Assembly: GCA_024278935.1 (NCBI GenBank) | Contig: JAJRSF010000020.1 | Span: 1-32,191 of the forward strand | Source: Candidatus Zixiibacteriota bacterium | Lineage (GTDB): Bacteria; Zixibacteria; MSB-5A5; GN15; FEB-12 | Reading direction: 5' to 3' | DNA: 32,191 nucleotides | Part shown: positions 7,137 to 24,745 of the stretch, one piece after another | Position numbering within the stretch: the stretch's first letter is position 1 | Layout: the number at the start of each line of letters is the position of its first letter | Made by a program: the position numbers and the translations under genes | Notes under the pieces: model-generated | The model's database searches: none | The model's input: only the letters and a program-made list of their open reading frames with translations | Told to the model about the DNA's origin: nothing

Positions 7137-7159
7137 ATTCAGAGTTTGTTAGATAGATT

Positions 7160-7178: not shown

Positions 7179-7217
7179 TTGATGTCTAAATTATTGTGGG
7201 ATATAGTAAAACTATTT

Positions 7218-8240: not shown

Positions 8241-8270
8241 TTAGGTATAAATTCTTATACTTAACCTATA
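8235..8270. promoter_or_regulatory. Long inverted repeat between -10 and ribosome site of the restriction gene
   Basis: Two 16-base arms (8235-8250 and 8255-8270) match at 14 of 16 positions when one is reverse complemented, with a 4-base centre. The repeat spans the -10, the expected start point and the leader, ending three bases before the GGAGG site. It could be an operator limiting endonuclease expression, or an mRNA hairpin. Confidence 0.5.
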
Positions 8271-8284
8271 AACGGAGGTAAATT

Positions 8285-9241
8285 TTGGGAAAAGCAGAAA
8301 GAGAATATGTAGAACTTTTAGAAAGAAATACTGATAAATATCTAAACAGCATAGGGCTAGATGTTCTTAGTGAACATGATGAAAGGAGAGTTACAAATTT
8401 AGGTGAATTTATAAAACTTAATTATCAATTCAGGAAATCGTGTCATATTGGTAATACTTACGGTACCTCAATAGGTGACATAAAGTTGATAGATGATTCA
8501 GATAAATATCTTGAGTTAAAGTTCTTAAAAAGTGGATCAGGTACAAGAGCAAACATATCTCAAGATGCCTTAACAAAAAACCTTCTCTTTAGTTCTGATG
8601 TTAAATCTTGGAATAAATATAGAGTAGAAAATAATTTTCAAATTGAAGTTCTTTCCATATTAAAAATTTATAGAAATTATAAAAAAGACATTTCACAGCT
8701 TAAAAACAATAATAGTACAATCTCAAAACTTGGTGCTATATTAAAAAAAGAAGCTGAAACAGATCAAGACGCAAAAAAGTTGAAAGAAGAGATTGAAGCT
8801 TTAGCTAGAATTGACAAGCTGAGGTATATCAAATATTTATCCCAACAAAATTACATTAAAGACAATGTAAAAAAATTCACTATTTTGCTTTTAATGGGAA
8901 GACATACAGAAGAGTCCCTAAATGAATTCAAAGATCTTAACTTAAAGCAAACCTTAGAATTGATTCCAGATAATTATGAGATAGTCTACATTTATAAAAA
9001 TAAAATTAAAAAAGATACTTATAAAATTGAAAAGATTTTCAACTTCATAAACAGAGTAGAAGATTATGATGTAAGAATTAGTTGCCCAATAGAACAAAGT
9101 AATCTTACAATAGATTTTAAAAAGGGTGACCACTGGTATAAAACTTTAAGATTTGCTTTTCACTGGAAAAACAAATTTCAAGGAATCGAAACACCATGTT
9201 TAAATGTCTTTGATGAAAATTTAGAACAATTATTCACCTAA
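8285..9241 (+). CDS. Putative type II restriction endonuclease
   Basis: 318 residues with a probable PD-(D/E)XK centre: IGDIKLID (63-70, Asp65) followed by YLELKF (75-80, Glu77, Lys79). The following segment SGSGTRANISQ is like those after the ELK motif in other restriction enzymes. A charged helical coiled coil spans about 145-185. The start is TTG (8285-8287) with a strong GGAGG seven bases before it, and no ATG lies near. It converges on the adenine methyltransferase gene, with a 12-base overlap of their 3' ends, the classic arrangement of a type II system. Its promoter is packed with inverted repeats, as expected if the toxic partner is tightly controlled. The recognition sequence cannot be read from the sequence. 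Confidence 0.7.
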   Translation: MGKAEREYVELLERNTDKYLNSIGLDVLSEHDERRVTNLGEFIKLNYQFRKSCHIGNTYGTSIGDIKLIDDSDKYLELKFLKSGSGTRANISQDALTKNLLFSSDVKSWNKYRVENNFQIEVLSILKIYRNYKKDISQLKNNNSTISKLGAILKKEAETDQDAKKLKEEIEALARIDKLRYIKYLSQQNYIKDNVKKFTILLLMGRHTEESLNEFKDLNLKQTLELIPDNYEIVYIYKNKIKKDTYKIEKIFNFINRVEDYDVRISCPIEQSNLTIDFKKGDHWYKTLRFAFHWKNKFQGIETPCLNVFDENLEQLFT

Positions 9242-10456
9242 ATCTAATGGCATAAGTTTTTCTAACTCTGTTTTAGATATTTGTGTATTCCCTGTTACTA
9301 GTTGCATGGTTTTAATTGTTTCTTTAGATGAAATTGCATCTGATATTTTTACTAGCTCTTCATAACTATACTTTTTTGTTTCACTTAAACTTAAAGTTAG
9401 TTCATCGTCTTGTTGAGGCGGATAAATTACGTTTACGTGATTTTCACCTAGAAATTTTACACCTGGCTTTATTACAGCAGATTTAATATTTACATTAGAT
9501 GCCGCACCTGTAATTCTATTAACTATTATAGCTGGACCAATATCAAATTTATCTGTATCTATATATTGTGCTTTTTTATCTGAATTCTCTAAGATGACAC
9601 CATTATCTGTAATATTATGAGCCCATATTAAAGGGATACCTTTTTCCCTATCGGCATATAACCTATCTTTGTTTTGATTCCAAACGACCTTACCTGTCCT
9701 AACAGTAAATCCAAGTTCACTCAAAGTAACTTTACCTTTAAAAGCATTATTTAGTTTTTCTGGATCAGTAGTAAATATATTTACACCGTTTTTGGTAAAA
9801 GTAAAATCACCTTTATTTTTACATTTTTTTAGAATCATAATCATAACTGTTTGTTGAGCATCATGAAACATATCGGAAGATTTTAATATATGGATATATT
9901 CAATATTTGAGTTTTCAACAATAAATTCTCTAAGCTTAGAAAAATATGCTCCATTATTCATAGAAGGTGGAATAACAAATGCTAAATAGCCATTAGGTTT
10001 TAGAAGTTCTATACCTAATTTAATAAACATGCTAAAAATATTTGGTCTGCCATTAATTACATCTCTAAATTTGTTCTTTAATTCAATTTCTGGTTTAAAT
10101 TCAAAATATGGTGGGTTACCAATAACAAAATCATAATATTCTTCATATTTTTGATTTAATGAATCGAGAGATTTAATTTTTGCTTCTGGAATCAATTTTT
10201 TTGAAAGTTTAACAAGTTTTGGATCTATTTCCCAACCAGTTAATTCACAATCACCAAAGTAATCTTTTGCCGCAGAAAGAAATTCACCTGTTCCATTGGC
10301 TGGGTCTAGGATTTTAGGGTTTTTCATTTTAGGCAACATGGAGATCAAATGATCTCTTACAAATTTAGGTGTAAAATATTGTCCTAGTTCTTTTCTATGT
10401 TTTAAGTCTGTCTCTTTCAGATATTTATCAGAAATCTCATGAAACTGATTGCTCAT
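9230..10456 (-). CDS. Type II N6-adenine DNA methyltransferase (gamma class, TaqI-like)
   Basis: 408 residues. Motif order is X-I-IV: GQYFTP (25-30), SAM-binding DPANGTGEFL (51-60), WEIDP (75-79, motif II) and catalytic NPPYFEF (114-120). A C-terminal target-recognition region extends to the end, including PLIWAHNI, as in TaqI/Eco57I-like enzymes. It methylates adenine in the target, protecting the host from the endonuclease encoded convergently at 8285-9241. ATG follows AGGAG at good spacing. The gene lies at the right side of the island and, with the endonuclease, would add a stabilising or defence function. Confidence 0.9.
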   Translation of the reverse strand: MSNQFHEISDKYLKETDLKHRKELGQYFTPKFVRDHLISMLPKMKNPKILDPANGTGEFLSAAKDYFGDCELTGWEIDPKLVKLSKKLIPEAKIKSLDSLNQKYEEYYDFVIGNPPYFEFKPEIELKNKFRDVINGRPNIFSMFIKLGIELLKPNGYLAFVIPPSMNNGAYFSKLREFIVENSNIEYIHILKSSDMFHDAQQTVMIMILKKCKNKGDFTFTKNGVNIFTTDPEKLNNAFKGKVTLSELGFTVRTGKVVWNQNKDRLYADREKGIPLIWAHNITDNGVILENSDKKAQYIDTDKFDIGPAIIVNRITGAASNVNIKSAVIKPGVKFLGENHVNVIYPPQQDDELTLSLSETKKYSYEELVKISDAISSKETIKTMQLVTGNTQISKTELEKLMPLDLGE

Positions 10457-10585
10457 TTTTACTCCTAAAATAGTTAAAAATAATGTTATTTCTTCAAAGT
10501 CTCAACTTTAGAAATTACCCTCTACAAGAATACGAATATTTATGTGTTAAAGTCAATTAACAATTTATCTAAACATTTCACTTCA

Positions 10586-10634
10586 TATTCTTCCAACGAA
10601 TCTAAATAAGTTCTAAACTCGTTAGCAACCTCCC
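10586..10634. repeat. Diverged copy of the island-end repeat
   Basis: Shares ATCTAAATA, GTTCTAA and AGCAACC in the same order and spacing with the copies at 10650-10757 and 24558-24657. On the - strand it can be read as an ORF of 33 codons starting MREVANEFRTYLDSLEEYE, parallel to ADDIRTYLDPLDEFY in the next copy, so a protein-coding origin is possible. Confidence 0.5.
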
Positions 10635-10649
10635 TCATATATAAGTCAT

Positions 10650-10757
10650 CCAATTAAAGAGATAATTTTTGTGTTTATATTTGTAATATAGAATTCGTCA
10701 AGCGGATCTAAATACGTTCTAATGTCGTCAGCAACCGCCCGCTTTAATATATCTCGT
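10650..10757. repeat. Island right-end repeat, copy A (candidate attR region)
   Basis: About 108 bases, closely similar to 24558-24657, with the identical block GGATCTAAATACGTTCTAAT followed by GTCGTCAGCA. Its GTTC, TCGTC and CCGCC (10716-10739) have the order and nearly the spacing of the same words in tRNA-Asp (1983-2005). On the - strand it reads ADDIRTYLDPLDEFYITNIN and stops, also parallel to the 24.6-kb copy, with several synonymous changes. It may be an attachment site, a small gene end, or both. Confidence 0.55.
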
Positions 10758-10946
10758 TGACTCACAAAGAATTATCGTAATTTTCATTTTTTAGAGTAAC
10801 CTCCCACTCCCAGTACTTTTTATTTTTCATTTATTTCAAAATATCTATACTCGTCTCTTACGAATGAGGAATTAAACTCATTTCTACATTGTAAAACAAT
10901 GACTTACACTCTGTTGTGACCGTTTTTATAAGAGCGTTCAACCAGA

Positions 10947-11132
10947 TTAGTTTCTTTTATTGTATTCTAATTTATCCAAACGGTTTTTCATCTTAGTTAG
11001 TTCATCTTCGAGAGTTTGATTCTGTTTATATAACGCTTTGATAGCTGCTAATGCGATACCGTCGGGATCCAATATATTGATATGCTTGTCATCTTCTCCT
11101 AAACTAAACGAACGAATAGAAATCGGTGCTTG
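10947..11132 (-). pseudogene. Tail of a phage tail-fibre/S74 intramolecular chaperone-type protein
   Basis: A 61-codon frame without start, ending at TAA 10947-10949. It reads SIRSFSLGEDDKHINILDPD, then GIALAAIKALYKQ and a final coiled coil (LEDELTKMKNRLDKLE). The DGIALAAIKALY-plus-coiled-coil ending is typical of proteins with an S74 peptidase chaperone domain, which cleave themselves after trimerisation. The rest of the gene is missing. A TPR fragment of opposite orientation begins at about the same point, so the break is a rearrangement joint. Confidence 0.55.
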
Positions 11133-11379
11133 CTATCGTATATTTACTCAACTTGAATATCGAAAAGGCAACAACGATAAAGCAAAAGAATGGTTCAAAA
11201 AATCTATTGATATGTTCCGTCTTATCAACTCCAATTATGAATTGGCAGTTACACGATACTCAGCATCAACTACCACCCTATATGTAAACGGTGAAAAATC
11301 TTCAATGCTCTATTTGGCAAAAGAGTATTTTGAATCAGAAAACATTACTCATTACAATTTGAATTTCTTCCTAAAATAA
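11106..11379 (+). pseudogene. TPR-repeat protein fragment
   Basis: The frame 11038-11379 has family-like sequence only from about 11106: EIGACYRIFTQLEYRKGNN, then DKAKEWFKKSIDMF and ELAVTRYSAS, a pattern of helical TPR repeats such as those fused to sensor or sigma54-type regulators. The first 20 or so residues are antisense S74 debris, and the end runs into the convergent lipoprotein gene. Both ends are missing, so this is a relic. Confidence 0.5.
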
Positions 11380-12679
11380 CAATAAATGTTGGCTCAGTAG
11401 TAAAAACAGAAGCAAAATTAATTGGTCCGATAGGAGTGGTTAATAACCCTGAACCATCACTTACAATAAGTATCTCAGCCTGCATTATATTTTCCATAAA
11501 GGTAAAGATCATAGGAAGTGGATCTGTAAAGTTTAGAAGTTCTTCATCAACGAGCATTGTACCACTTGTTAGAACAGTTGTTTGGGATAAGTTAGATCCA
11601 TCTGGAATAGTGAAACTGTATGATCCGCTTGAATTAATAGAAGCACCAGATCCGTTGACACCGCTAAGTAAAACTGTACCTTCCCAGTTTATTCCATCAC
11701 AAGAGGAACCTTGACCTGTGAAAGTTAATCCATCCGAAACAGTTCTTGTCCATTCAAAAGCAAATCCATCGCATACAGCATCTTCTATCCAATCACCATA
11801 TACTTGCCGAACAGCTTCAGAATTAGCCCCATTATTAATCATTGATTGAGCAGCTAATTCCATAATAGTATTATGATTTGAATTATCACCTGCTCCAAGC
11901 AATAGAACCACTGCGTATTTCTTAAGAAGGTCATCTACATCATTCACACTCTTTAAACAAGGATCAAAACTTTCAATAGTATCGTTTAATTCCTTTAATG
12001 CAAGCTCTTTTGCTTTATCAATTGCGTCTTCATCTAATCCTTCAATACCAAGCAGTTGAGCTTCAGCAGCAATACGGAGTGCTTCCTGTATGGTGGCTTC
12101 CGTCAACTGACCTTCAGCCCAAGTTGAATATGTAGAACGAGCATCATCCATATAAGCTAGTCCATCACCCCCTGCTTTCATATCATAAGCAGCAGCTCGA
12201 AGTAAATCACGAACCTTTTGCCTCACATCAGCTAAAAATGATGAAGTTAATTTTATATTATTTACCTGATCATATTTTGAAGTATTGCCATCCAATAAGG
12301 TAGAAAGTAATGATCGTGCCTCTGTATTTTTTCCTTCATTTAATAAATTTTCCACTTGTGTAAATATCGCAAGAAAAGAAGGTGATATATCTAACGAACA
12401 GAATCCATCTTCAGACATAAGTTCTTCAGTTATTGTTTCTGCTCCATCTAACCCTAGATTTTCAAATGTTAAATCTTCTTTGGGAATTGGAATTAGCGAT
12501 GCTTCTTCAATATTAAAACTAATACTTATTGGATTTTCGCATTCATCTGAAATGACAAATGATTGTAGTTCAGGATCTGTAGGGTTTTTATCTTCAGATG
12601 AACAACCAAAAACAATTAAAATCATCGGAACAATAATCATTATTATAGAAATATTCTTTATCAGTTTTTTAATAACCAT
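11345..12679 (-). CDS. Predicted lipoprotein of unknown function
   Basis: 444 residues with a lipoprotein signal peptide: basic start (KKLIKN), long hydrophobic core and lipobox VFGC (Cys26). It should be lipid-anchored on the outside of the inner membrane or in the outer membrane. The central region (about 110-290) is helical and Ala/Leu-rich (EALRIAAEAQLLGIEGLDED), TPR-like in appearance. The C-terminal part is beta-rich (LTFTGQGSSCDGINWEGTV). No family is recognised. ATG is preceded by AAGGATG. It is the last gene of the operon, about 105 bases after the CsgG-OmpA gene, so a shared role in cell-surface assembly is plausible but unproven. Confidence 0.75.
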   Translation of the reverse strand: MVIKKLIKNISIIMIIVPMILIVFGCSSEDKNPTDPELQSFVISDECENPISISFNIEEASLIPIPKEDLTFENLGLDGAETITEELMSEDGFCSLDISPSFLAIFTQVENLLNEGKNTEARSLLSTLLDGNTSKYDQVNNIKLTSSFLADVRQKVRDLLRAAAYDMKAGGDGLAYMDDARSTYSTWAEGQLTEATIQEALRIAAEAQLLGIEGLDEDAIDKAKELALKELNDTIESFDPCLKSVNDVDDLLKKYAVVLLLGAGDNSNHNTIMELAAQSMINNGANSEAVRQVYGDWIEDAVCDGFAFEWTRTVSDGLTFTGQGSSCDGINWEGTVLLSGVNGSGASINSSGSYSFTIPDGSNLSQTTVLTSGTMLVDEELLNFTDPLPMIFTFMENIMQAEILIVSDGSGLLTTPIGPINFASVFTTEPTFIVILGRNSNCNE

Positions 12680-12783
12680 AATTATTTCATCCTTAAGTTA
12701 TCTTGACTGGTTTCTAGTATTCCTATAAATGAAATTATTCTTTAACGAACTTTCTGCATGGTAAAATAAATTTCAACATCGTC

Positions 12784-14559
12784 TCATATTCGTATTAATT
12801 CAACTCTTCTATTATTTGCTTTACCCTCAGGTGTGTCATTTGTTTCCATAGGATTGGATTCGCCCCATCCCTTTGACTCCAAACGTTCAGCAGAAATAGA
12901 ATATGTAGTTATGAGATAATTTCTAACAGCCTCAGCTCTATTCTGAGAAAGAGATTGATTGCTTTCATCTGACCCATCACTGTCAGTGTGCCCTTCAATA
13001 GATAATCTTAAAGCAGGATCATCTTCAAATAAACGTCCGATTTCTTTAAGCGTCTTAAATGATTCACCTTTTATTTTATCAGAACCTGAGTCAAAGAGAA
13101 TACCGTGAGTAACAATCTTGCCATCATCTTCAAGTTGCTGACGCATTGTTTTTCCACCTTCAGCAAATCTGAAACCACGGAACAATGTTGGGTTTTCTGC
13201 TTTTTTTCGAGGATTGGTTGCTACCATAGACCCTACCGGATCAAAGCCATCAACTTTTGGAATATTTGCGACACGCTCGTTATCTATATAACATTTAATA
13301 GAACGTTTTGTTGCCATGATTCTCATAGTATGAATGCCTTTAGTAAGGTCACTTGATAATTTTTTGCGGGCAACATCTTTTTTTAGAATTCTTATCTTGG
13401 TCGCATTACTATTTGACAAGGCAAGATATCCAATACTTTTTCCTTTACGATCTATCCAATGGATATAAAAATAAGCACCAAGTTGGTCAGGACCATTTTC
13501 GTAAAATTCTAACTCAACCGTATATTTTAGTGGAGGCGGGGCGTCGGCAATCTTAGGACGAACTTTACCATTATCAGAACACATAATCCAACATTCCTTG
13601 CCTAACCGAACAACTTCATAAACACCTTTATCAAGATTCCAACGATATGGAAACTCTCCTTCTTCTTCATCTTTCATATCATCAAAAAAGATTACTTTAT
13701 TGCCAGGGACAAAATCATATTTGGTAAACAGTGTCATATCTTCAGCAGTAGATGCTGATGAAGAAGTATTGGATGTTACGTTAGAAACATTAGTCTGTTC
13801 ACCAGCTGAAGACCCTTGAGATCCATACTCTTTTGAGTATTGTCCTTTACCTTTATAGCGGTAATATTCATCAGGAATTTCTTTTGAAACCATTTCAAGA
13901 GTTTTTGCTAATGCCGTTCTGATTGCATTCTCCATTGGTTTATTAGAATACACTCCTAAACCTCCAACAAGTGCAACATCTTCAACCCATCCCCCGCCAG
14001 TCATACTTGTTTTCCATTTTGAAGATTTAGCTTTGATAGTTTTTGCTTTTATAATACGTCTTGTGCGAATGTCGATAATTTTTATATCAATTTGAATTTC
14101 AGCATTTTTCTTGTTAATACCAATTTTTCCAAATGCTTTTTTCTTAAGCCCTCCAAGACCACCGCTACTACCACCGGCATTCGGTTCAAATGCGGTTACC
14201 GCTCCGGTTATCAAAAGATCAGCCCCTTCCATAAGCCCTTTATCTGGACCACGTCCTTCTTCAACATAGCCTGATTGACCTAGCTCGATTTCATCAATCA
14301 GCTCTTCAACTTCCTCTTGATTGGCAAGAACAATAAATTTTTCATTGTTAGCCAAAGATGTTGATATCATTTCACCTATAGCTTCAGCAATATCGCGAGG
14401 ACATTTTGATGCTTTGGTTTTTATTTTACCAACAGTGATTCTTGCTTTGTTGCCTTGATAAGTTACATTGTCATCTGCAATTACAACTGTTGAGCTTAGA
14501 ATAAACATCAACAATAATGCCATAACAAAAAGGGTGCGGGCGTTCAATCTGTTTTGCAT
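12784..14559 (-). CDS. CsgG-domain and OmpA-domain fusion protein
   Basis: 591 residues. A signal peptide spans about 1-29. A CsgG-like domain spans about 34-240 (VGKIKTKASKCPRDIAEAIG, then MISTSLANNEKFIVLANQ, then GADLLITGAVTAFE). A Ser/Thr-rich linker follows near 248-275. A LamG/concanavalin-like middle domain spans about 285-460. The C-terminal OmpA peptidoglycan-binding domain spans about 485-591 (ILFDSGSDKIKGES, GHTDSDGSDESNQSLSQNRA and NRRVELIRI). CsgG proteins form or help outer-membrane secretion pores, and OmpA domains bind the cell wall. ATG has GGAGG four bases before it. The combination suggests an envelope-anchored secretion or sensing component. Here CsgG is at the N-terminus without a lipobox, unlike true curli CsgG. 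Confidence 0.88.
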   Translation of the reverse strand: MQNRLNARTLFVMALLLMFILSSTVVIADDNVTYQGNKARITVGKIKTKASKCPRDIAEAIGEMISTSLANNEKFIVLANQEEVEELIDEIELGQSGYVEEGRGPDKGLMEGADLLITGAVTAFEPNAGGSSGGLGGLKKKAFGKIGINKKNAEIQIDIKIIDIRTRRIIKAKTIKAKSSKWKTSMTGGGWVEDVALVGGLGVYSNKPMENAIRTALAKTLEMVSKEIPDEYYRYKGKGQYSKEYGSQGSSAGEQTNVSNVTSNTSSSASTAEDMTLFTKYDFVPGNKVIFFDDMKDEEEGEFPYRWNLDKGVYEVVRLGKECWIMCSDNGKVRPKIADAPPPLKYTVELEFYENGPDQLGAYFYIHWIDRKGKSIGYLALSNSNATKIRILKKDVARKKLSSDLTKGIHTMRIMATKRSIKCYIDNERVANIPKVDGFDPVGSMVATNPRKKAENPTLFRGFRFAEGGKTMRQQLEDDGKIVTHGILFDSGSDKIKGESFKTLKEIGRLFEDDPALRLSIEGHTDSDGSDESNQSLSQNRAEAVRNYLITTYSISAERLESKGWGESNPMETNDTPEGKANNRRVELIRI

Positions 14560-14606
14560 AGTACCTCCAATTATTTGCTTAATAATACATATTTGTTAAT
14601 TACTTA

Positions 14607-15536
14607 TTATTCCTCAAGTTTCGCTTCCAATCTTTTTATCCTCTCCCATATTCCGACTGGATATTCCGGAACATATCCTTTGCCTTCTTCAACTTTAAAC
14701 AACAACATGCTTTTTTGATACGCGGAAATAGCTTCTTTAATCATTCCGTTTTCTTCATATACCTGTCCAAGTAAGGTTCTGGCGTGAAACGACTCAGGTG
14801 AATCGTTCACTAACTCAAGCGAATTATTCAAAGCTTCCTGTTTTTTCCCGTCCATAATGAGGTAATGAATCATAGATATATCAATTTGCAGTTTATCAAG
14901 ATGGTCTTTTTTGAGAATAATAGATGTTTGAGATTCTAACTTTAAATTTCTATCAATATCATTGTAAAAGAGTTGAAGAGCATGAGTGTCTTCACTAACT
15001 ATTTCTCCGGGAGGAATCATGATACTCATTGAGCCGATCTCACCCTGACCAATATTTAGTTTTGATTTAATTGTATCAAGTGCATAGATAAATGATACAG
15101 GAGTTTTTTTCGTATCAATAACTTTGTATAAAGTTAAGTTATTTTTCCATGAAAGGTCTTCAGCACCTATAAAAAAATCTTCAAACTGAGGTTTCGGAAG
15201 ATCATCACTCAACCTATCCTTATATACCTGCGCAGCAATATATCTTGGATTATAAATTTCCACATAGAGTTCGATAGCTTCCTCTCTGTCAAAGATACCT
15301 TTAGGTCGCAGAGGATAAATTTGTATTGCTATATCTTTTTTTTTCGAGATAAACTCTTCAAATGTACTTGTACTTTTGTTATTTAACTTATCTTTTGATG
15401 TGGAGCTTTGATTGTCAGCAACAGATTCTTTTTTTTCTGTTTCTCCTTTTTGATCATCAGAAGAGCAGCTGATCAAAATGCATATCAAGTAAGATAAGAG
15501 ACTTAAAGTTAATAATTGAATATTATTTTTTTTCAT
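14607..15536 (-). CDS. TPR-containing lipoprotein
   Basis: 309 residues with a lipoprotein signal peptide (lipobox LISC, near residue 24) followed by a Ser/Lys-rich linker (24-58). A beta-rich domain spans about 70-210. At the C-terminus are at least one clear and one weaker TPR (HARTLLGQVYEENGMIKEAI and the residues before it). Its ATG overlaps the stop of the upstream metzincin-like gene as TAATG, so the two are translationally coupled. It probably works on the periplasmic or outer-membrane side with the neighbouring secreted proteins. No named family is recognised. Confidence 0.75.
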   Translation of the reverse strand: MKKNNIQLLTLSLLSYLICILISCSSDDQKGETEKKESVADNQSSTSKDKLNNKSTSTFEEFISKKKDIAIQIYPLRPKGIFDREEAIELYVEIYNPRYIAAQVYKDRLSDDLPKPQFEDFFIGAEDLSWKNNLTLYKVIDTKKTPVSFIYALDTIKSKLNIGQGEIGSMSIMIPPGEIVSEDTHALQLFYNDIDRNLKLESQTSIILKKDHLDKLQIDISMIHYLIMDGKKQEALNNSLELVNDSPESFHARTLLGQVYEENGMIKEAISAYQKSMLLFKVEEGKGYVPEYPVGIWERIKRLEAKLEE

Positions 15537-16570
15537 TATTCATCACTCACATGAACTTGACTGAGACAGTTGCCTTTCTCAGCGGATCCTAATTGAGAAC
15601 TTTTATTACCGACCTGTCCATTTTCATCTACACATAATTCATTAGCTCGTCTTTTCCAAAAGGTATTTATAAAGGGTATTGGTTGTTTTCGTTCATCAGT
15701 AGCTAACTCACCATTTTTTTGTTTAAAATATTTACCATGTCCATACACCATTACACATTCTATATTACCTGCATTTACTCCATTCCACAATGCTATAGAT
15801 TTTGTCTTACCATTTACTTCAATATCTTCATTTAATTCTCCATGATGATGAACCCCGCATCCATGCATAAATTCATGTATAGCTATACTATTAAAAACAT
15901 CTTTACTCCAACCAAGACTGGCTATTTTGTTTAAATCTAAACCTATACATTTATTTGATTTAGGTGAGCCAAGTTCACCATAAGCAACTCCTAATGATCC
16001 TAGTGCTGAAAGATTATAATGATAAACAGCGAGTCCATGTTGCTCACATACAGACCACTCACCCCTGTTGGGATTAATTACTTTAATTGTTGCATTCACA
16101 AAATCAGTCTGTTCATCTAAAATTATGATTCTAATTTCATCCTCTACAATAAATTTGTCTATTAAGTTTGATTTAATTTCAGCAGAAACACAGTAAACAA
16201 ATAAGTTCATCAACTTTTCAGGGTCTGTAGTGATATGAACACCACCCTCTCCGCCAAGCATAAAGCCACGATATTCCTCATAGGCTGTCAGACCATCACC
16301 AATTTTCTGACTACCCTCTTCATCCTGCATCGTCTCAATTCCTTCGTTCCAACGATGTTGAATTTCAAAAGCATCGGCTATCTTGTTATCTATTCCACCT
16401 CTTTCATCCAGTGGAATAGTGATATACCCCTCACCTTCTTTAGTATAAATAGGCATCCAGGCATCTTCTTCAATCTCAATTTCAGCTTTAATTTTCCCCC
16501 ATGCACCCCAATCAAGGGCGATAACATTTATATTTGCGTTACCTACTTTATTTGATGTTTCTACTTCCAA
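15536..16570 (-). CDS. Metzincin-like zinc metalloprotease domain, C-terminal part of a gene split by an in-frame TAA
   Basis: 344 residues (TTG start as drawn) with HEFMHGCGVHH at 232-242, an exact match to the metzincin motif HExxHxxGxxH (zinc His232, His236, His242; catalytic Glu233), and a plausible Met-turn VMVYG near 273-277. It has no signal peptide. The frame continues upstream through TAA 16586-16588 into 16586-17638, whose product has one. Between the stop and the TTG only ETFEG is encoded, and the joined sequence reads smoothly. One secreted protease of about 700 residues is therefore likely, broken by a nonsense codon. A separate gene starting at the weak TTG is less likely. Substrate is unknown. 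Confidence 0.75.
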   Translation of the reverse strand: MEVETSNKVGNANINVIALDWGAWGKIKAEIEIEEDAWMPIYTKEGEGYITIPLDERGGIDNKIADAFEIQHRWNEGIETMQDEEGSQKIGDGLTAYEEYRGFMLGGEGGVHITTDPEKLMNLFVYCVSAEIKSNLIDKFIVEDEIRIIILDEQTDFVNATIKVINPNRGEWSVCEQHGLAVYHYNLSALGSLGVAYGELGSPKSNKCIGLDLNKIASLGWSKDVFNSIAIHEFMHGCGVHHHGELNEDIEVNGKTKSIALWNGVNAGNIECVMVYGHGKYFKQKNGELATDERKQPIPFINTFWKRRANELCVDENGQVGNKSSQLGSAEKGNCLSQVHVSDE

Positions 16571-16585
16571 TCCCTCAAATGTTTC

Positions 16586-17638
16586 TTAAGGAGCTTTAAA
16601 TTGAGTTCCTGATGAATTGATCTGAAATTCAAGATCAAAATCTTCACTCTCTCCTGAATTTAGACAAAATCCTTTTTCATTAGTAACCTCATATAAAGTG
16701 AACCGGATTTTTCCTTTTACACCATTGAATCCATCACCTGTTACTTTAATAGTCACAGGTTTTTGTTCTTCAGGATTTGGTATCCAGTCTTTATCGGCTT
16801 TCTCCAGAACCAGCGGTATAGCTTTTTCACCGGGCGATAATGACCAGCTCTTAATTCCGTTCTTGCCTGAGTAAGAATCTTTCAACTGCATTCCGCTTTT
16901 AGGAAGGGGATACTCTTTTGGTTCATCCATATCAGGGAAAAGTTCAAATCCGGCTAACCCGCCAACCATTATTCCCCGAGCATCTTCAAGAGGACCTTCA
17001 TAGGTCGCCCATTTCTCGGCTACTTGACCCATCGGTAGAAATATCTCTCGCATTCCTTCAGGAAGGTCTTCCAGTGAAGAATAATCTGTTGGCAAACCTG
17101 TAACAGTTCTTGTGAGGGTCGCTGTTCCTTCGTCCTCGGGTCCACCTAACCCCACGCTATATGTTCCTGAATAAGCATCTATCATAAGCGAACCACCCCA
17201 AAACTCTCCGTATTCATTTCTCGATGGATCTCCAATTGTCCCGCTTGCTTCAGAGTGGGTGTGTTCGGTAATAACTATCTCGCCACCTTCAATAGAGCTA
17301 GTCATAGTTACTATCTGATCCATTGTCGATGATCCCGAACCAAAACCATACCACTCACCGTAGAACTGACCATCAGAGTCCAGACTATCGAGAGTAAAAC
17401 TGCCAGAGTATATGTTTTTTACACTTGTTTTCATTACAACACCCGGTCGCATTTCCCAAGTTTTTTCTGACGTATACGTTTCATTATAGGATGCAGTCCA
17501 ACTCTTAACAGTGAGCCATTTGTCTGCTAATTTTTTCAGCTCTTTATTAGACGGATTATTTGACTCTACCGGCTGTCCAAGATGGATGACAGCTATCAGT
17601 ATCAAAATGACTATAACGGATCTAAAAATTATTTGCAT
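16586..17638 (-). CDS. Secreted protein, N-terminal part of the split metzincin-like gene
   Basis: 350 residues starting with a signal peptide (MQIIFRSVIVILILIAVIHL, cleavage near residue 27). The mature part is beta-rich, with many Gly/Ser/Thr and repeated YSGSFTLDS / YSGTYSVGLG-like strands. A domain near 285-345 (KVTGDGFNGVKGKIRFTLYE) looks like an extracellular beta-sandwich. It stops at TAA 16586-16588 and stays open in the same frame into the metalloprotease region. Alone it would lack catalytic residues. It follows the 187-residue gene by 27 bases in the same operon. Confidence 0.7.
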   Translation of the reverse strand: MQIIFRSVIVILILIAVIHLGQPVESNNPSNKELKKLADKWLTVKSWTASYNETYTSEKTWEMRPGVVMKTSVKNIYSGSFTLDSLDSDGQFYGEWYGFGSGSSTMDQIVTMTSSIEGGEIVITEHTHSEASGTIGDPSRNEYGEFWGGSLMIDAYSGTYSVGLGGPEDEGTATLTRTVTGLPTDYSSLEDLPEGMREIFLPMGQVAEKWATYEGPLEDARGIMVGGLAGFELFPDMDEPKEYPLPKSGMQLKDSYSGKNGIKSWSLSPGEKAIPLVLEKADKDWIPNPEEQKPVTIKVTGDGFNGVKGKIRFTLYEVTNEKGFCLNSGESEDFDLEFQINSSGTQFKAP

Positions 17639-17665
17639 TTAGAGAATTTTCTAAATAGATAATAT

Positions 17666-18208
17666 CTATTTTTTTACAGGTTTATAAACAATTGTAATTG
17701 CTGTCTTTGCTTCAGGCATAAAATTTGGTTCTCCATCTGTTGATTCAAAAACGACAATATTAGGAATTGTCATCCCCTGTGTCATATCTATATTATTAAA
17801 TTCATCGGGACCATCCCAGAAAATATCAAACATATCAAACGTGTTTTTATATTTCCAATCTTTCAATTTCTCTTTGTAAAAACTCACAACTTTAGCTTGA
17901 TCATCAACCGTAGCCATAGTAATTAAGGGTAACATCACAAGCGTATCATCATTTACTTCTATCGGACCACCTTGCATCAGTGCCACTATGAACGCACCTG
18001 GATAAACAGGCAGACCGACTTCTTCTTTGCTCGGAACCTTCCAACTATCAACTAAAGTTACCCAATTCGCTCGATTCTCAATTTTCTCAGGTAATTTAAT
18101 TTTAGGAGCGAATGGTTCTTCTGCTACAACAGTTGAATAGCTTAAGGCCATTACTCCAAGTAAAAAAATAACGATAAATAATTTTCTGTGTGAAATAAAA
18201 GATAGCAT
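17666..18208 (-). CDS. Exported protein of unknown function
   Basis: I start at ATG 18208 (AAAGGA six bases upstream), giving 180 residues. A TTG at 18229 would add seven residues. A signal peptide is clear (RKLFIVIFLLGVMALSYSTVVA, cleaved near AEE). The mature protein has the pattern of small periplasmic proteins that begin with a proline-rich strand and contain LPVYPGAFIVALMQ and VVSFYKEKLKDWKYKN. The latter resembles the amphipathic segment of proteins with a 'pseudo-protease inhibitor' look, but no family can be named. It is the first gene of the operon reaching to 11345, directly after a sigma70 promoter at 18299-18327. Confidence 0.7.
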   Translation of the reverse strand: MLSFISHRKLFIVIFLLGVMALSYSTVVAEEPFAPKIKLPEKIENRANWVTLVDSWKVPSKEEVGLPVYPGAFIVALMQGGPIEVNDDTLVMLPLITMATVDDQAKVVSFYKEKLKDWKYKNTFDMFDIFWDGPDEFNNIDMTQGMTIPNIVVFESTDGEPNFMPEAKTAITIVYKPVKK

Positions 18209-18283
18209 AGTAAATCCTTTCTTCCTCAATTATTCTAATACTGTAATTCATTTATTGTCTGCTGTGTGATTATAAAATATGAT

Positions 18284-18299
18284 TGTGCTATAATAGACA
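18284..18299. promoter_or_regulatory. Imperfect dyad at the start of the exported-protein operon
   Basis: TGTGCTATAATAGACA directly downstream of the -10, matching most positions of the palindrome TGTCTATATATAGACA found in the same place at 22759-22774. Confidence 0.5.
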
Positions 18300-18327
18300 T
18301 ATTATTACATAATTTACGAGATGTCAA
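18299..18327 (-). promoter_or_regulatory. Promoter of the exported-protein operon
   Basis: On the - strand, TTGACA (18327-18322), a 17-base spacer and TAATAT (18304-18299). Same hexamers and spacing as the promoter at 22774-22802. The remaining bases of 18230-18465 hold no gene. Confidence 0.7.
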
Positions 18328-18465
18328 CGAAAATGCTCTTGTTTCACCTTAATAGCATGATCGCTAATTGTTCAATTTTTATCAAATATCTGTATAACTA
18401 TTGGGACCAAAATTCTATTCCTGAAATAGATTTATATAATCCTTGAGATAATTATTTATTATTGT

Positions 18466-21400
18466 CTATTTTAGTAATAACATTTTCTTTGAACTAGTGT
18501 AGTTTTCTGTAACTAATTGATAAAAATATATTCCACTTGCAACTTTATTTCCAGAAGTGCTAGTACCGTCCCACTCTATCATATATTCACCAATCGATAG
18601 TCGTTTGTTAACTAAAGTTACTACTTTTTGTCCAATTATATTAAAAACTTGCAACTCTACATCACTATTTACCGGTATAGCAAAACGTATACTTGTCGAC
18701 GGATTAAAAGGATTAGGATAGTTCTGGTAGAGTTCAAATTTCTTAGGAAGTAATAAATTTTCTTCATCATTCACTGATACCGGTGAATCACTATTACCAG
18801 AAAGTATTGTTAATACATTTGGTTGAGTTTGAAGAATAATAATATCATCATCACCATCAGCATCTAACCTAGCACCTTCGATAGAAACAGGTCGACTGGC
18901 ACACCAATAAAGGTCAGTTGAGTCTACCGTTTGGAATGCCCCTCCTCCAATGTTGTGTGATACTGTTGACACATAATAACTTCCTCCAAAAGTAGAACCT
19001 ACTCCTGTGATACTGACACTCTCGCCTGACTTGAGGATTCCAGCATATAAGTCGCTAGGACGATAACCAAATTCTCCTTGCCATCCTAAGTAAAATGTTC
19101 CATCACCGTTATTGAGTAAAACTGTAACAGTATCAGTAATATAACTAGATACTAATATATCAATATCATTATCACCGTCAAAATCAGATGTCGTGATTGT
19201 TTTAAGTTGACGATCGGCAGCATATGATTTTGCGGGAGCAAAACCATTTCCGTTGCTCAGTAAAACCCATACATGACCGGTGGAAGCATCGGCGACAGCC
19301 AAATCAACACTTCCATTGCCGTCAAAATCATCACCCGCCATATCAATCGGAGAAGCTCCAGCAAAGTGCCATACTCCTGGACTGCACACTCCATTACTAT
19401 CGTTCTTGAGAAGATAAACACCGGCAGTAGAGTCTGCACGCGCAATGGCTATATCCATATCATTATCGAGATCAAAATCTGCGGCAACAACCGAGTTACC
19501 GCCATTTGGATAGACTACAGAAGCAGAATAGATTCCACTGCCGTTATTCATCAAAATATCTATTATGTTGGCACTGTCACTGGCAACAGCAATGTCAATA
19601 TCCAGGTCGCCATCGAAATCCCCGATTGCCATTGCAGAAGGCGGTCCGGAAAGTCCATGGCTTCCAAAAATCTGAAATACTGCGGCACCATCATTTGACC
19701 ATACTTCGACAGTGTTTGGAGTAACTGTGCTGATGACAACATCTTTGTCGTTGTCATTATCAACATCAGCTGTTGCAACTGCTGTTGGGGTGCCAGATAG
19801 CTGATAATCTACAGGATGGCTAAACAGACCGTCCCCATTGAATACAACTATTTGGATATCATGCTGCTTAATATCAAGACCATCGGAAGCAAACAGACTC
19901 ACCGGGTATCGGCCAGCCTGATTAAATCCAGGTGTAAATGTTAAATCTGCAGTCCCGTTATTATTATCAAAGAGAGATGCCCCAGAGGGTAAACCAGATG
20001 CTGTGATGGCAGCTACTTGACCGTCTACATCTGTAGTACTAATTATAGCTTTTAGTGTGTCTCCCTCAATAACAGTTAATTGATCATAATTTAATGCCAG
20101 GAAAATAGGAGGGTGGTTGCTAACCAGTGTATTGTTTGTAACAATTTGAACCCCTTGAGCACCTTGATCTGTAACAATTGCATCTATATCGCTATCACCA
20201 TCAATATCAGCAATGGTTATTCCAAATACGCCACCTCCTGCACTATAGTTGACAGGTTGAGTAAGAGTTCCATTTCCATTATTCTGGAATACTTGAAAAA
20301 CACCACCACCAAAGTATGAATTATTGCTGGCAACCAGGACATCCAAACTGTTATTGCCATCAATATCCGCAAGGTCAAGATAAGTCATGTACCTGATTGT
20401 GACAAAATCTATAAATGTAAAGCGACCAGAACCATTGTTTAACATTACTGTTAAGGTATCATCTCTGGTAACAACCATATCTATGTCACCATCAGCATCC
20501 ATATCACCAGCTTTTATATCAGATACGGATCGAGCGCTTATATATGCAGTATCAAATACAAATGTTCCATTACCGTTATTAAGGTAGACTTGAAATTCTG
20601 GATGTAGTGGCCATAATCTTCTTGCTGGAATTACTAAATCAAGATCATTATCGCCATCAATATCCCCACTGGCAATTGATTTGGGTTGGCCAACAGCAGA
20701 AAATGAGGTTGGTGCTCCAAAAGTTCCATCACCATTATTTAGTATGGTGGCAATTGTCGAATCATCAAAGGCAATAGCTGAGATATCTATATCATTGTCA
20801 CCATCAGCATCGTAGAGATGAACATATCTAGATCCAGGACCTGTTTGATACAGGACTGAAGGAGCAAATGTTCCATCACCATTGTTTATCATAACTGCTA
20901 TCGAATCATAGCCAGGGATGTTATTAAAATCATAGTATGGAATTACAATATCTGGGAATGTATCACCATTTAAATCTGCTGTTGCAGGAGCAATTGGATT
21001 GTGCGGGAGTGTATCTTCAAGTATTTGTGTAAAAAGTCCCGTTCCATCGTTGTCGAGCAACCTCAAGAAATAATAGCTTAATGATGCTGAAACATATTTA
21101 CCTCCTGTTTCAATGATATCAATATCACCATCTTTATCAAAATCTGCTGCAGCAGTTCCATGAGGGCCACCCGGCCAATAAGGAAAGCTGTAGTCAACCG
21201 GTGGGTTGAATAGTGGTGTACGGTCGTTGACAATAACTGTTACTGTAAAAAAGGATGTATCATCAATATCACTTGCCTGGAATGTAACATTATGTGATCC
21301 AGCTTGATTCCAATCAGGTAAAAATGTCACTTGCAGTGAGTCAACATCATATCCCCCAACAAAATCCTTGAAAAACATATTAACAGGATTGATGTTTGAT

Positions 21401-22647
21401 GTATCAATTTGAGCTCCGCAACCATCATCTTCATAAGCATAAACGGTGAATTTTAGTTCTTGTCCTTCATTTACATAATATGTATTCTGAACTGAAAAAT
21501 ATGGCGGGCGTGGTATGTCCGTAAAACGATACACCTTGAGTGAGTCAAAAATTCCGTAACCAACTCTATTAACCGTTGTAGTGAAGATATATTCACCTGA
21601 ACGCTGAAAGTCCCGATAATTTCCCGGGTCAGTTGATTTAGTTCCAGACCACCACGATCCAGAATGATTTGCAGTATCCTCAACATAGATAGTGCCACCG
21701 TTAAACCATAACATATACTTATCATTTAATTTACCTTTTCTCCCAAAGTCTTGTACTGTACCTCTTAATCCTATTTGTACAGGTAAGGAAGGACTTGAAA
21801 TGTTATAATAATTTAACGAGTTCCCTAGAGGTTGATAAGAAGTGTAGTTTCCGGTAACGAGTAGACGATCACCTTGTACTGAAAGAGATGTAGCTGTTTT
21901 TTCACCGGTTCCGGATGTTACTTTAAGCGATGCTACTGGACCATTTTGTGGAAGAAGAGTATTGTCATACACCAACAGCCCACTGTCACCGGCAGCAAGG
22001 TACGTATATCGTCCACTGGTATCTGAAGCAACATCAAATACCCAATTGGTGGGATTATTCCACCATAAGTCATGCCCAACCTCCACTGGCATAGAACTGT
22101 TGGAGAAATCAATTAGAGAATAACCAGTCTTAAAGTATACCGTCCTTATTGCTACAAATACTTTATTGTTGTGGGCACTTAACTGCCACACACCTCCAAC
22201 AACATCAACCCCCGATAGTTGGATAGGGTTGAGTGGATCGGTCAAATCAAAACGAGCAACAACACCTCCACCTCCAAAAAGACCTAAGGAGTCAACTCCG
22301 ATTGTAGTTTGATGTGTTCCTACATATAGGATATTTGAATCCAGAGCAATTGATGATACCAGGTTGTACATGGACACACTATCAATCACCGCTACAATTT
22401 GTGGTGCATTAGGATCAGCGATATTTACAATAGTTATTGCAAGTGAGTCCGTATTCTGGCGAATTATCGCTAACGTATCCTGATATAGGAGAATTTGGTT
22501 TGGATTGATCGGCAAGCTGATCGATGATACTTGATCAATATAACTACATTGTGCTTTTGTTTCTGAGAAGGTCAAAAAAGACAAAATTAGTGTCACTATT
22601 ATAGCACAATATTTATACTTAAAATTGACAATTTGGAGAGTAAACAT
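18466..22647 (-). CDS. Giant FG-GAP/VCBS surface protein with a type IX-like sorting domain
   Basis: 1393 residues. An N-terminal signal peptide is present, then LVIVD-type repeats (about 40-330). Cadherin-like Ig segments follow, near 380-470 (YYVNEGQELKFTVYAYEDDG) and 840-935. There are two long arrays of FG-GAP/VCBS repeats, with more than ten DxDxDxD-type calcium loops (such as DFDKDGDIDI), near 490-830 and 945-1280. The C-terminus (about 1308-1393) is a sorting domain: LYQNYPNPFNPSTSIRFAIP, then VFNIIGQKVVTL, then SGIYFYQLVTENYTSSKKML. This domain normally directs export and surface attachment through a type IX-like system. The RBS AAAGGAG precedes ATG. The protein is probably an adhesin or calcium-stabilised surface propeller. 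ORFs on the other strand within it are shadows of the repeats. Confidence 0.92.
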   Translation of the reverse strand: MFTLQIVNFKYKYCAIIVTLILSFLTFSETKAQCSYIDQVSSISLPINPNQILLYQDTLAIIRQNTDSLAITIVNIADPNAPQIVAVIDSVSMYNLVSSIALDSNILYVGTHQTTIGVDSLGLFGGGGVVARFDLTDPLNPIQLSGVDVVGGVWQLSAHNNKVFVAIRTVYFKTGYSLIDFSNSSMPVEVGHDLWWNNPTNWVFDVASDTSGRYTYLAAGDSGLLVYDNTLLPQNGPVASLKVTSGTGEKTATSLSVQGDRLLVTGNYTSYQPLGNSLNYYNISSPSLPVQIGLRGTVQDFGRKGKLNDKYMLWFNGGTIYVEDTANHSGSWWSGTKSTDPGNYRDFQRSGEYIFTTTVNRVGYGIFDSLKVYRFTDIPRPPYFSVQNTYYVNEGQELKFTVYAYEDDGCGAQIDTSNINPVNMFFKDFVGGYDVDSLQVTFLPDWNQAGSHNVTFQASDIDDTSFFTVTVIVNDRTPLFNPPVDYSFPYWPGGPHGTAAADFDKDGDIDIIETGGKYVSASLSYYFLRLLDNDGTGLFTQILEDTLPHNPIAPATADLNGDTFPDIVIPYYDFNNIPGYDSIAVMINNGDGTFAPSVLYQTGPGSRYVHLYDADGDNDIDISAIAFDDSTIATILNNGDGTFGAPTSFSAVGQPKSIASGDIDGDNDLDLVIPARRLWPLHPEFQVYLNNGNGTFVFDTAYISARSVSDIKAGDMDADGDIDMVVTRDDTLTVMLNNGSGRFTFIDFVTIRYMTYLDLADIDGNNSLDVLVASNNSYFGGGVFQVFQNNGNGTLTQPVNYSAGGGVFGITIADIDGDSDIDAIVTDQGAQGVQIVTNNTLVSNHPPIFLALNYDQLTVIEGDTLKAIISTTDVDGQVAAITASGLPSGASLFDNNNGTADLTFTPGFNQAGRYPVSLFASDGLDIKQHDIQIVVFNGDGLFSHPVDYQLSGTPTAVATADVDNDNDKDVVISTVTPNTVEVWSNDGAAVFQIFGSHGLSGPPSAMAIGDFDGDLDIDIAVASDSANIIDILMNNGSGIYSASVVYPNGGNSVVAADFDLDNDMDIAIARADSTAGVYLLKNDSNGVCSPGVWHFAGASPIDMAGDDFDGNGSVDLAVADASTGHVWVLLSNGNGFAPAKSYAADRQLKTITTSDFDGDNDIDILVSSYITDTVTVLLNNGDGTFYLGWQGEFGYRPSDLYAGILKSGESVSITGVGSTFGGSYYVSTVSHNIGGGAFQTVDSTDLYWCASRPVSIEGARLDADGDDDIIILQTQPNVLTILSGNSDSPVSVNDEENLLLPKKFELYQNYPNPFNPSTSIRFAIPVNSDVELQVFNIIGQKVVTLVNKRLSIGEYMIEWDGTSTSGNKVASGIYFYQLVTENYTSSKKMLLLK

Positions 22648-22758
22648 ATTTCACTCCTTTATTAAATACAATTTATTATCATTTATTAGATAAAAGACTA
22701 AACCGTTTTATTATTTAATATATTTATTGTCTGTTAAATATATGTGCTATATAATTAT

Positions 22759-22774
22759 TGTCTATATATAGACA
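22759..22774. promoter_or_regulatory. Perfect 16-bp palindrome at the VCBS gene promoter
   Basis: TGTCTATATATAGACA, touching the -10 box. It is a candidate operator shared, in imperfect form, with the exported-protein operon at 18284-18299. Confidence 0.55.
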
Positions 22775-22802
22775 TATTATAACATTTTAATCAAATTGTC
22801 AA
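22774..22802 (-). promoter_or_regulatory. Promoter of the VCBS surface-protein gene
   Basis: On the - strand, TTGACA (22802-22797), a 17-base spacer and TAATAT (22779-22774), leaving a leader of about 120 bases. The leader also contains AGACAATAAAT, as does the leader of the operon at 18208. Confidence 0.7.
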
Positions 22803-22891
22803 CCAAATAACTCTGGTTTACTTAAACACATAATCGGTAAATGCGATGTCTCTTTTCGTTCTCTAGTTTGCTAAGCTGGCTAAATTGTATT

Positions 22892-22917
22892 GATAGTATC
22901 TACTACAGTCTACTATC
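22892..22917. promoter_or_regulatory. Inverted repeat between divergent surface-protein genes
   Basis: GATAGTA (22892-22898) and TACTATC (22911-22917), a perfect 7-bp dyad 12 bases apart, upstream of the dockerin gene promoter. Confidence 0.35.
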
Positions 22918-22944
22918 TGGCAACTTCATCATCATTAAAACAAT

Positions 22945-22973
22945 TTGCATAAACCCCAATTACCTGAGATAAC
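22945..22973 (+). promoter_or_regulatory. Possible promoter of the dockerin-protein gene
   Basis: TTGCAT (22945-22950), a 17-base spacer and GATAAC (22968-22973), about 43 bases before ATG 23016. The match is moderate. Confidence 0.35.
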
Positions 22974-23015
22974 ATGGAGTAATACTAACTTATTTCAGAA
23001 TTAGAGAGGGATTCG

Positions 23016-24464
23016 ATGAAACATGTAAATCAAAGCGTAATTTGTATTGTAACTCTCTTATCAACTACTTTAATGGCAGAAGTCCCTCCACTTATTAGCT
23101 ATCAAGGTCGACTTACTGATTCAGGTAATAACCCTGCAGCTGATGGAAGTTATGAAATTACATTTAGCATATATGATGTAGAAACCGATGGGACGCCTTT
23201 TTGGACGGAAACACATAATTCTATTTTAGTCCAAGATGGTTTGTTTAATGCAATTTTAGGAGCTACAACTCCCTTTGGTCCTTCTCAAAATAAAAATGCG
23301 ACCTCTTCAAAATCTTTAGGGATAAAGTCGGCAGCGCCGTCTATGTGGTTGGGTGTACAAGTAGGTTCCGACCCTGAACTGACTCCTCGGTCTCGACTTT
23401 TGTCAGTACTTTTTGCTTTTAATGCTGACCGAGCGGACACAGCTCAATTTTCTTATAATTCACAAAGTACTATTTACTCAGATACAGCCTTTTATACTCA
23501 TGGAGCAAGTGTTATTGAGCAGGCAAAAAACTATATGATAGCTGGGGATACATCGGGAGTAGCTTTTTATATCGATAGTATAGAAAATTCAATTGAAAAC
23601 ATACAGACATATCATGATGATATTAAAACAGTTGTTATCTCTACTTATCAATCAGCAATTAAAACAATTCCAAATGATGATAGTTTAATCGAAAATTACC
23701 AATTTGTTATCAATGAATCATTTTGGAGACAATACCAATCACTGTTTGCTTTATCTTTTTATTTGCTTGATCCAAATAATGTAACATTACAGGCAACAGC
23801 AATTGCGATAATTGATAGTGCAATCATAAGTACGGAAAATTCAATAGTAACAGCAAACTCACTTAGGCAGATGATTTTTCTTTCAGCTTCAAAACCTGCT
23901 TTGAAAATTGACTTATCAGATCATAGTAATACTCCTAATTCAGGTGATACTGCGATAGTTGATATTGTTGTTACTAATATTGGTGGAGGCGAAGCTCAAA
24001 ATAACTATATCACAATTAGCTTAGAACCGGATTTAATATTGCTAACTGAAGATACAGTTACTATACCCAATCTACTTCCAGGTGATTCAGCAGTAACTTC
24101 GATGATGATTTATTTTGATGATCTGTTGCATCCACAAATTTCAAATTATATGGCAACTGCGATAATCACTCCAAATTCTACAACCGCAATGAGTAGATCT
24201 AAAGCGACAACATATTTTGTTAATACTACTTACTGTTGTGTCCCACCTACACGAGGCAATACTGATGGTGATGTGCTTGATGCGGTTGATATTTCAGATA
24301 TTGTATATCTTGTAGACTTTATATTCACTAATGGAGAAACTCCATTGTGTGCTGATGAAGCAAATGTAGACGGTAATCCAGGAGAAGATATTGACATTTC
24401 TGACTTAGTTTGGCTTGTTGACTTTATCTTTACTGGTGGACCTCCACCTGCTAACTGCCCTTAG
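23016..24464 (+). CDS. Secreted protein with a C-terminal type I dockerin-like module
   Basis: 482 residues. A signal peptide spans about 1-21 (cleavage before EVPPLI). The mature N-terminus LISYQGRLTDSGNNPAADGS then TFSIYDVETDGTPFWTET (about 26-65) is a repeat common in exported proteins of Zixibacteria- and Marinimicrobia-like genomes. The helical middle spans about 160-295. A CARDB-like beta domain spans about 300-400. The C-terminus has two dockerin-like calcium loops with helices (GNTDGDVLDAVDISDIVYLV and NVDGNPGEDIDISDLVWLV, about 412-475) preceded by CC. No cellulosome context is seen, so the module probably serves surface attachment. ATG follows GAGAGGG. A terminator follows at 24493. 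Confidence 0.85.
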   Translation: MKHVNQSVICIVTLLSTTLMAEVPPLISYQGRLTDSGNNPAADGSYEITFSIYDVETDGTPFWTETHNSILVQDGLFNAILGATTPFGPSQNKNATSSKSLGIKSAAPSMWLGVQVGSDPELTPRSRLLSVLFAFNADRADTAQFSYNSQSTIYSDTAFYTHGASVIEQAKNYMIAGDTSGVAFYIDSIENSIENIQTYHDDIKTVVISTYQSAIKTIPNDDSLIENYQFVINESFWRQYQSLFALSFYLLDPNNVTLQATAIAIIDSAIISTENSIVTANSLRQMIFLSASKPALKIDLSDHSNTPNSGDTAIVDIVVTNIGGGEAQNNYITISLEPDLILLTEDTVTIPNLLPGDSAVTSMMIYFDDLLHPQISNYMATAIITPNSTTAMSRSKATTYFVNTTYCCVPPTRGNTDGDVLDAVDISDIVYLVDFIFTNGETPLCADEANVDGNPGEDIDISDLVWLVDFIFTGGPPPANCP

Positions 24465-24492
24465 GCAAAAGATTACATTATTTATAATTACA

Positions 24493-24525
24493 AAGCCAGT
24501 AGGTTCACACTTACTGGCTTCTTTT
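24493..24525 (+). terminator. Rho-independent terminator of the dockerin-protein gene
   Basis: AAGCCAGTA (24493-24501) pairs perfectly with TACTGGCTT (24512-24520), with a 10-base loop, followed by CTTTT. It lies 29 bases after the stop codon. Confidence 0.85.
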
Positions 24526-24557
24526 AATATTTCAAAAATTTAGTTAACTTGTTATCC

Positions 24558-24657
24558 GGCAATTGAGGAAATTTTATTATTTATCTTTGTAAGATAGAAT
24601 TCATCAAATGGATCTAAATACGTTCTAATGTCGTCAGCATCGCCGCTTTATATTTAT
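24558..24657. repeat. Island right-end repeat, copy B, joined to a recombinase remnant
   Basis: About 100 bases closely similar to 10650-10757, including TAGAATTC, then GGATCTAAATACGTTCTAAT and GTCGTCAGCA. The similarity ends near CGCTTTATA. It is followed directly by the decayed recombinase tail. On the - strand it reads ADDIRTYLDPFDEFYLTKIN and stops. Confidence 0.7.
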
Positions 24658-24745
24658 AACAAGTCCTTCAGTGAATACGTTGAAGGCTTTATTGTATGTG
24701 GGATATAGTGTTGCATCTACAAATTACTTGGGAGTTTTATATCTC
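24658..24745 (-). pseudogene. Decayed C-terminal tail of a serine recombinase
   Basis: On the - strand one frame reads FVDATLYPTYNKAFNVFTEG, which lines up with the end of the island recombinase (NFVLDGATLCYTYKKPFNNV and AEG). A shift or stop near 24725 separates it from a preceding LPSN. The DNA also keeps the CCTTCA/TGAAGG hairpin of the intact copy. No catalytic domain remains. It is a relic of a related element. Confidence 0.65.

Follow-up and report, generated by a model that had tools for sequence, protein, structure and literature searches.

An island at a tRNA-Asp gene of a Zixibacteria genome whose large serine recombinase gene appears to be cut by its own integration

Integrase genes that contain attP are already known. 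Mx8, a phage of Myxococcus xanthus, targets a tRNA-Asp gene, and integrase genes of the SSV type (fuselloviruses) are split when integrating into a tRNA gene. According to PMC4701971, which deals with its intP and intX, a 112-residue C-terminal sequence of the Mx8 protein is swapped for 13 residues. In the streptococcal rumA ICEs, the att site lies inside a serine integrase gene, so that the integrated form encodes a protein of another length and C-terminus than the excised form (PMC4701971). Mx8 and SSV are both named as having integrases that span attP (PMC4383910). Mycobacteriophage BPs carries attP in a coding gene as well, from which integration takes off 33 C-terminal residues with a degradation tag (PMC4557955). 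Concerning tRNA genes, a 2014 paper on tRNA islands stated that no serine integrases were known to target them (PMC4383910), and a word search covering part of the later literature returned no report of a tRNA-targeting serine-recombinase family with attP in the gene.

The island studied here resembles Mx8 in that attP apparently lies within the integrase gene and the C-terminus is replaced by integration, but the Int of Mx8 is a tyrosine recombinase. With the rumA ICEs it shares, going by their description, a serine integrase gene holding the att site, whereas their target is a protein gene and not a tRNA. Integrases of the SSV type likewise reach across attP, but are archaeal tyrosine recombinases. 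In BPs, too, a coding gene contains attP; however, it is the repressor that is split instead of the integrase, and the Zixibacteria tails are without such a tag. Domain order and the very short core are those of large serine recombinases of the type Resolvase, Recombinase, Zn ribbon, while the targeting of tRNA 3′ ends is unlike the usual members of that group. We rate a tRNA-targeting serine-recombinase family of this architecture as a new variant of what is known from Mx8 and the rumA ICEs.

The island and its ends

The window, i.e., the whole stretch of DNA that was analysed, is the complete contig C20 (32,191 nt) of an assembly of 3.4 Mb in 68 contigs. Positions 2007-10742 are an integrative element composed of a large serine recombinase, an HUH Rep, a SpoVG-like protein, and swappable defence cargo. 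Its target is a tRNA-Asp (gtc) gene, found intact by ARAGORN at 1930-2006 on the plus strand; the order PMM, tRNA-Val, tRNA-Asp is conserved in genome G002, and PMM with tRNA-Asp in G004. The recombinase gene in its integrated form (1965-3452, minus strand) matches the Pfam families Resolvase, Recombinase, and Zn_ribbon_recom. The rolling-circle (HUH) Rep of the backbone (5684-6433, minus strand; Pfam REP_ORF2-G2P, 2.7e-15) has counterparts with 94% amino-acid identity in G003, which is Candidatus Zixiibacteriota Dive96_bin3.155 from the same genus as the genome of the window, and with 49% in G055. An N6-adenine methyltransferase (9230-10456, minus strand) and its neighbour of unassigned family (8285-9241) are replaced by other cargo in G003.

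The backbone common to window positions 3597-10456 and G003 contig C81 (39.6-48.2 kb) consists of the recombinase, the HUH Rep, the SpoVG-like protein, and the gene at 7424-8011. The cargo of the window element comprises the N6 methyltransferase and an ATPase/DUF4276 pair, that of G003 a different pair, of methyltransferase and helicase, both named from their sequence and not by family search. The ATPase at 4070-5299 is akin to the PADLOC models HEC-01A/AriA and is interrupted by one in-frame TAA codon; the DUF4276-like partner adjoins it.

In G003 the element occupies C81:39461-48240, at a different insertion site and with the same boundaries. DNA identity between the two elements is 92% in the recombinase, 89% in the middle, and 94% at the right end, and the stretches between these blocks are unshared. 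Since the left and right flanks in G003 are unlike those in the window, the shared sequence marks the ends of the element, with GACCCCGCC as left and CGCTTTAA as right boundary in the comparison of both. An empty tRNA-Asp site is available in G002 (GACCCCGCTTTAAT), where GACCCCGC-TTTAAT fits both flanks. From this site it follows that attB contributes GACCC..GC to the left flank and TTTAA to the right one, and that CCCGC is the core they share. This core, GCGGG on the recombinase strand, is located at 2000-2004 in attL and at 10738-10742 in attR and recurs in the empty site (GACCCCGC/TTTAAT); the comparison of window, G003, and G002 places the chromosome from TTTAA onward. Similarity between attL and attR is limited to GCGGG.

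The repeat at the right edge had been predicted to be the right end of the island, and G003 bears this out, its own element having a copy with 94% identity at the outer edge. In the G055 element, no tail with the motif described below was seen where its right end is expected, a point against the split-gene reading set out below. The further suggestion that the repeat mirrors the tRNA-Asp gene did not hold (alignment score 18, shuffle mean 17.8). The tRNA and the repeats have the 5-bp core alone in common, as is expected of a serine recombinase.

As far as can be judged from sequence, the repeat is instead the cut-off 3′ portion of the gene for the large serine recombinase, with attP inside that gene. 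On the minus strand, the attR arm (10646-10742) reads RAVADDIRTYLDPLDEFYITNINTKIISLIG followed by a stop and continues the left end in frame across GCGGG. The two ends thereby fuse to one C-terminus, ...KKPFNNVAEGTQSKKW-RAVADDIRTYLDPLDEFYITNINTKIISLIG, in the window, where the fusion was put together from two separate halves, and in G003, where it was read directly; left end, core, and right end together give ..LCYTYKKPFNNVAEGTQSKKWRAVADDIRTYLDPLDEFYITNINTKIISLIG and the stop. The severed part carries the tail motif W.a..DD(I/F/V)RT(Y/F)L. The final codons of the integrated recombinase are antisense tRNA-Asp (RGRRDSNSRPPA), so that, by this reading, a native tail of about 31 residues was exchanged for RGRRDSNSRPPA upon integration. 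A terminator-like hairpin for the tRNA, brought by the element, lies at 2022-2045 on the plus strand (one found, 0.1 expected), and its bases double as the KPFNNVAEG codons of the minus-strand recombinase.

An attP inside the 3′ end of the gene implies that insertion into a tRNA gene would remove the tail of the enzyme and leave it at the far end of the element. In the circle, the recombinase gene would be whole, with attP about 31 codons ahead of the stop. The recombinase, presumably that of the island itself, would cross attP with the 3′ end of tRNA-Asp at the GCGGG core. The tRNA would stay intact and gain the hairpin of the element as its terminator, while the integrated gene would drop its native tail and run into antisense tRNA, the cut-off 3′ end arriving at the far (attR) end. 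Excision would make the gene whole again. For the recombinase strand, with 10742 joined to 2000, the predicted attP is ..GAAGGGACTCAAAGTAAAAAATGGCGGGCGGTTGCTGACGACATTAGAACG..; as neither a circle nor reads were seen, excision and this sequence stay predictions. The tail swap may also affect activity.

Taken as a whole, an attP-split recombinase gene, together with a truncated and frameshifted uncut 3′ end of a related gene at 24.6 kb, is the best explanation, to which we assign a probability of roughly 0.88. Split, frame, core, empty site, and uncut relatives are all apparent at the level of the sequences compared.

Cut and uncut forms in relatives

Open reading frames that run uncut from KPF..AEG into the tail motif were found at locus L131 (EDWYAQEDDVRTFL) and in the genomes G013 (QKWRGWLYEFRNFL), G070 (SWLPWLDVIRTF), G116 (IKLPLLDEFRNFL), and G054 (DFWLAIVDYFRTAA). 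A tail alignment of eight rows, of which those of the window, G003, and the acidobacterial locus L090 are composites of two ends, has one invariant Arg. L090 shows the same layout as the island: its distal KWSALADDFRTYIVKNAG with stop and its attL at tRNA-Pro have the 9-bp core AATGGTCGG in common.

One pair stems from Melainabacteria, where the proteins of L121 (uncut) and L122 (cut at tRNA-Val) are 94% identical over the pair. Over the stretch shown, the DNA of both is identical up to AAAATGGTGG; past this point L121 continues with its native tail (AKDAKLELLCKYF..) and L122 with antisense tRNA-Val. In G147, to which L122 belongs, the free-form tail of L121 was not found, which speaks against the split-gene reading. 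Viral contigs have uncut tails at L139, L141, L142, and L144-L147, with tRNA-like tails in relatives of 79-84% identity; conservation in these contigs was insufficient for an alignment-based hunt for uncut forms. Within the phylum set no full-length uncut copy was seen; L121 of the Melainabacteria is one. Plasmid and phage records contributed only distant recombinases, with at most 28.6% identity among the matches listed. Cut and uncut forms thus both exist in nature, as given by L121/L122, L131, and the remnants in the phylum.

Free-form tails of Melainabacteria/Gastranaerophilales (L139, L141-L147, L121) end in LAA, FAA, DVA, LVA, or NVA and are degradation-tag-like; those of Zixibacteria are not.

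Tandem double tails at the end of an element were observed in two genomes, at 10540-10640 in the window and at approximately 1660-1890 of L179 (G116). In the window, the older second copy (minus strand, REVANEFRTYLDSLEEYEVKCLDKLLIDFNT with stop) has 41% amino-acid identity to the severed tail with neither gap nor stop; just inside the right end, it is a third and weaker copy of the repeat (score 51, shuffle maximum 30). Such double tails are possibly traces of an earlier exchange of recombinase or cargo.

The 24.6-kb feature

The original prediction interpreted the sequence around 24.6 kb as an attP scar, on the grounds that a second repeat copy is followed by a recombinase tail, right end then left end, in the same orientation. 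This arrangement was confirmed: 10651-10752 against 24560-24657 reaches a local score of 110, with 35 as the best of 1000 dinucleotide shuffles, and the tail at 24662-24715 against 2019-2073 reaches 35, which was equalled by 1 of 1000 shuffles. Similarity of the right-end copies does stop at CGCTTTA, and we agree that two related elements are involved. The right-left order stands, but the prediction missed that the repeat itself is coding, so that the 'junction' looks as it would wherever such a gene is left uncut. In all, the interpretation is partly supported. A survey of the remaining contigs added no strong copy to those at 10.7 kb and 24.6 kb, the only two in the 3.4-Mb genome, and a dispersed repeat family was rejected on this count; the weaker tandem copy at 10540-10640 had been overlooked.

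According to its sequence, the feature is what is left of a related recombinase gene: a decayed 3′ end whose parts stand in uncut (attP) order, with the 5′ part missing and a frameshift of 2 nt. Its tail part (24552-24646, minus strand) ends in ADDIRTYLDPFDEFYLTKINNKISSIAG with stop and has 86-87% DNA identity to 10651-10752 and 75% amino-acid identity. The remnant core CCGC is located at 24643-24646. Between the EG codons and the tail motif the remnant has 2 nt fewer than its uncut relatives, which leaves the two halves out of frame by 2 nt and counts against the overall explanation. Next to it, 24662-24745 (minus strand) encodes the C-terminal recombinase fragment FVDATLYPTYNKAFNVFTEG, the upstream part of the gene being absent. 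Positions 24665-24713 match the DNA immediately 3′ of tRNA-Gln, -Asp, -Ser, and -His in relatives (74-88%), and one frame of them, VDATLYPTYNKAFNVFTEG, fits the family motif TL[CY]PTY[RKN]KPFn.iAEG.

That the match at 24.66 kb is mere terminator, resembling that of the tRNA by chance, is suggested by a hairpin followed by T-rich DNA at both sites. However, the similarity runs past the hairpin in the recombinase frame, eight relatives have the match beside tRNAs, and a recombinase tail directly adjoins. We consider a chance or terminator-only match highly improbable and rejected it on the tRNA-adjacent matches in relatives and the recombinase frame.

How the decayed recombinase end arose has two readings that we hold about equally likely, namely a junction of tandem elements and a single uncut gene. 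For the former, two elements would have integrated in tandem, the right end of one against the left end of its older neighbour (a chimeric att site), and both bodies would have been lost, which by itself we put at slightly under even odds. Where elements lie in tandem, chimeric attI sites have been described (PMC5704250), and the second tail beside the right end of the island, like the double tail of G116, suggests accretion. The broken frame across the join points the same way, as does the uneven similarity to the island: the right part is 86-87% identical, whereas among the matches of the left part the left end of the island ranks only 12-13, other elements being closer. Unequal affinity of this kind would fit two source elements. 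Yet the divergence from the island, 26% in the left and 13% in the right half, gives only p = 0.076 in Fisher's test; neither a tRNA nor another attB is present at 24.6 kb; and five similar remnants in the phylum run uncut through this point, in three cases with open frames. Given a non-significant gap, a left part nearer to other elements, and a right part of 86-87%, both origins stand.

The scar implied by the original prediction would require a circular element to have arrived by a different route, e.g., a Rep-mediated or illegitimate one. The right-left order and the HUH Rep encoded by the element are in its favour, and so are the 5′-truncated uncut remnants between ordinary genes in five other genomes of the phylum (G013, G030, G054, G070, G116); on the other hand, the recombinase end is all that remains at 24.6 kb. 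We regard this route as possible, with somewhat less than an even chance. Downstream of PFK, G001 and G004 have differing neighbours, which leaves the insertion not datable by synteny.

Direct repeats at 10.7 and 24.6 kb could also delimit a second element between two right-end copies. The genes in between look chromosomal, though, and G004 has orthologues of two of them in one place, next to a two-component system; neither a recombinase nor a left end is found beyond 10.75 kb. A second element is thus very unlikely and was rejected on the chromosomal-looking genes and the G004 orthologues.

tRNA targeting across the family

In 45 of 86 relatives with a full recombinase N-terminus, the 3′ end of the gene meets an antiparallel tRNA; 12 isotypes occur at these sites. 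The 30 loci examined in the phylum divide into 21 with a tRNA at the 3′ end, two with a non-tRNA site, five uncut and truncated, and two unclear cases. Non-tRNA sequence is the insertion site of G003 and of G042 (L061).

We tentatively propose, as an idea more likely wrong than right, that in this wide family of tRNA-targeting serine integrases the nested attP acts as a state switch, in which antisense-tRNA residues of the host replace the native tail and alter stability or direction. The split gene makes the difference between the integrated and the free enzyme testable. It also explains a common oddity of annotation, serine recombinases with tRNA-like terminal peptides such as RGRRDSNSRPPA, and provides a rule for locating the far end of such elements, i.e., to search for the lost tail. 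Furthermore, it yields predicted attP sites for tRNA-targeting serine integrases, a class useful in genome engineering.

The non-tRNA site of G003 and L061 is a member of a family of short sequences, which in G008 has a copy 3′ of tRNA-Asp; its members are located at L047 5217-5345, at L061 11438-11548 and 20865-20933, and at the end of L054. At L012, L015 (tRNA-Gln), and L028 (tRNA-Asp), recombinase-tail remnants follow right after the tRNAs, with no recombinase match beyond the last 20 codons or so; apparently they are terminators abandoned by lost elements. In G071, a tail-like peptide (KLAIADDLRTYID) is encoded at a distance of 1.2 kb from tRNA-Gln, with no recombinase recognised there.
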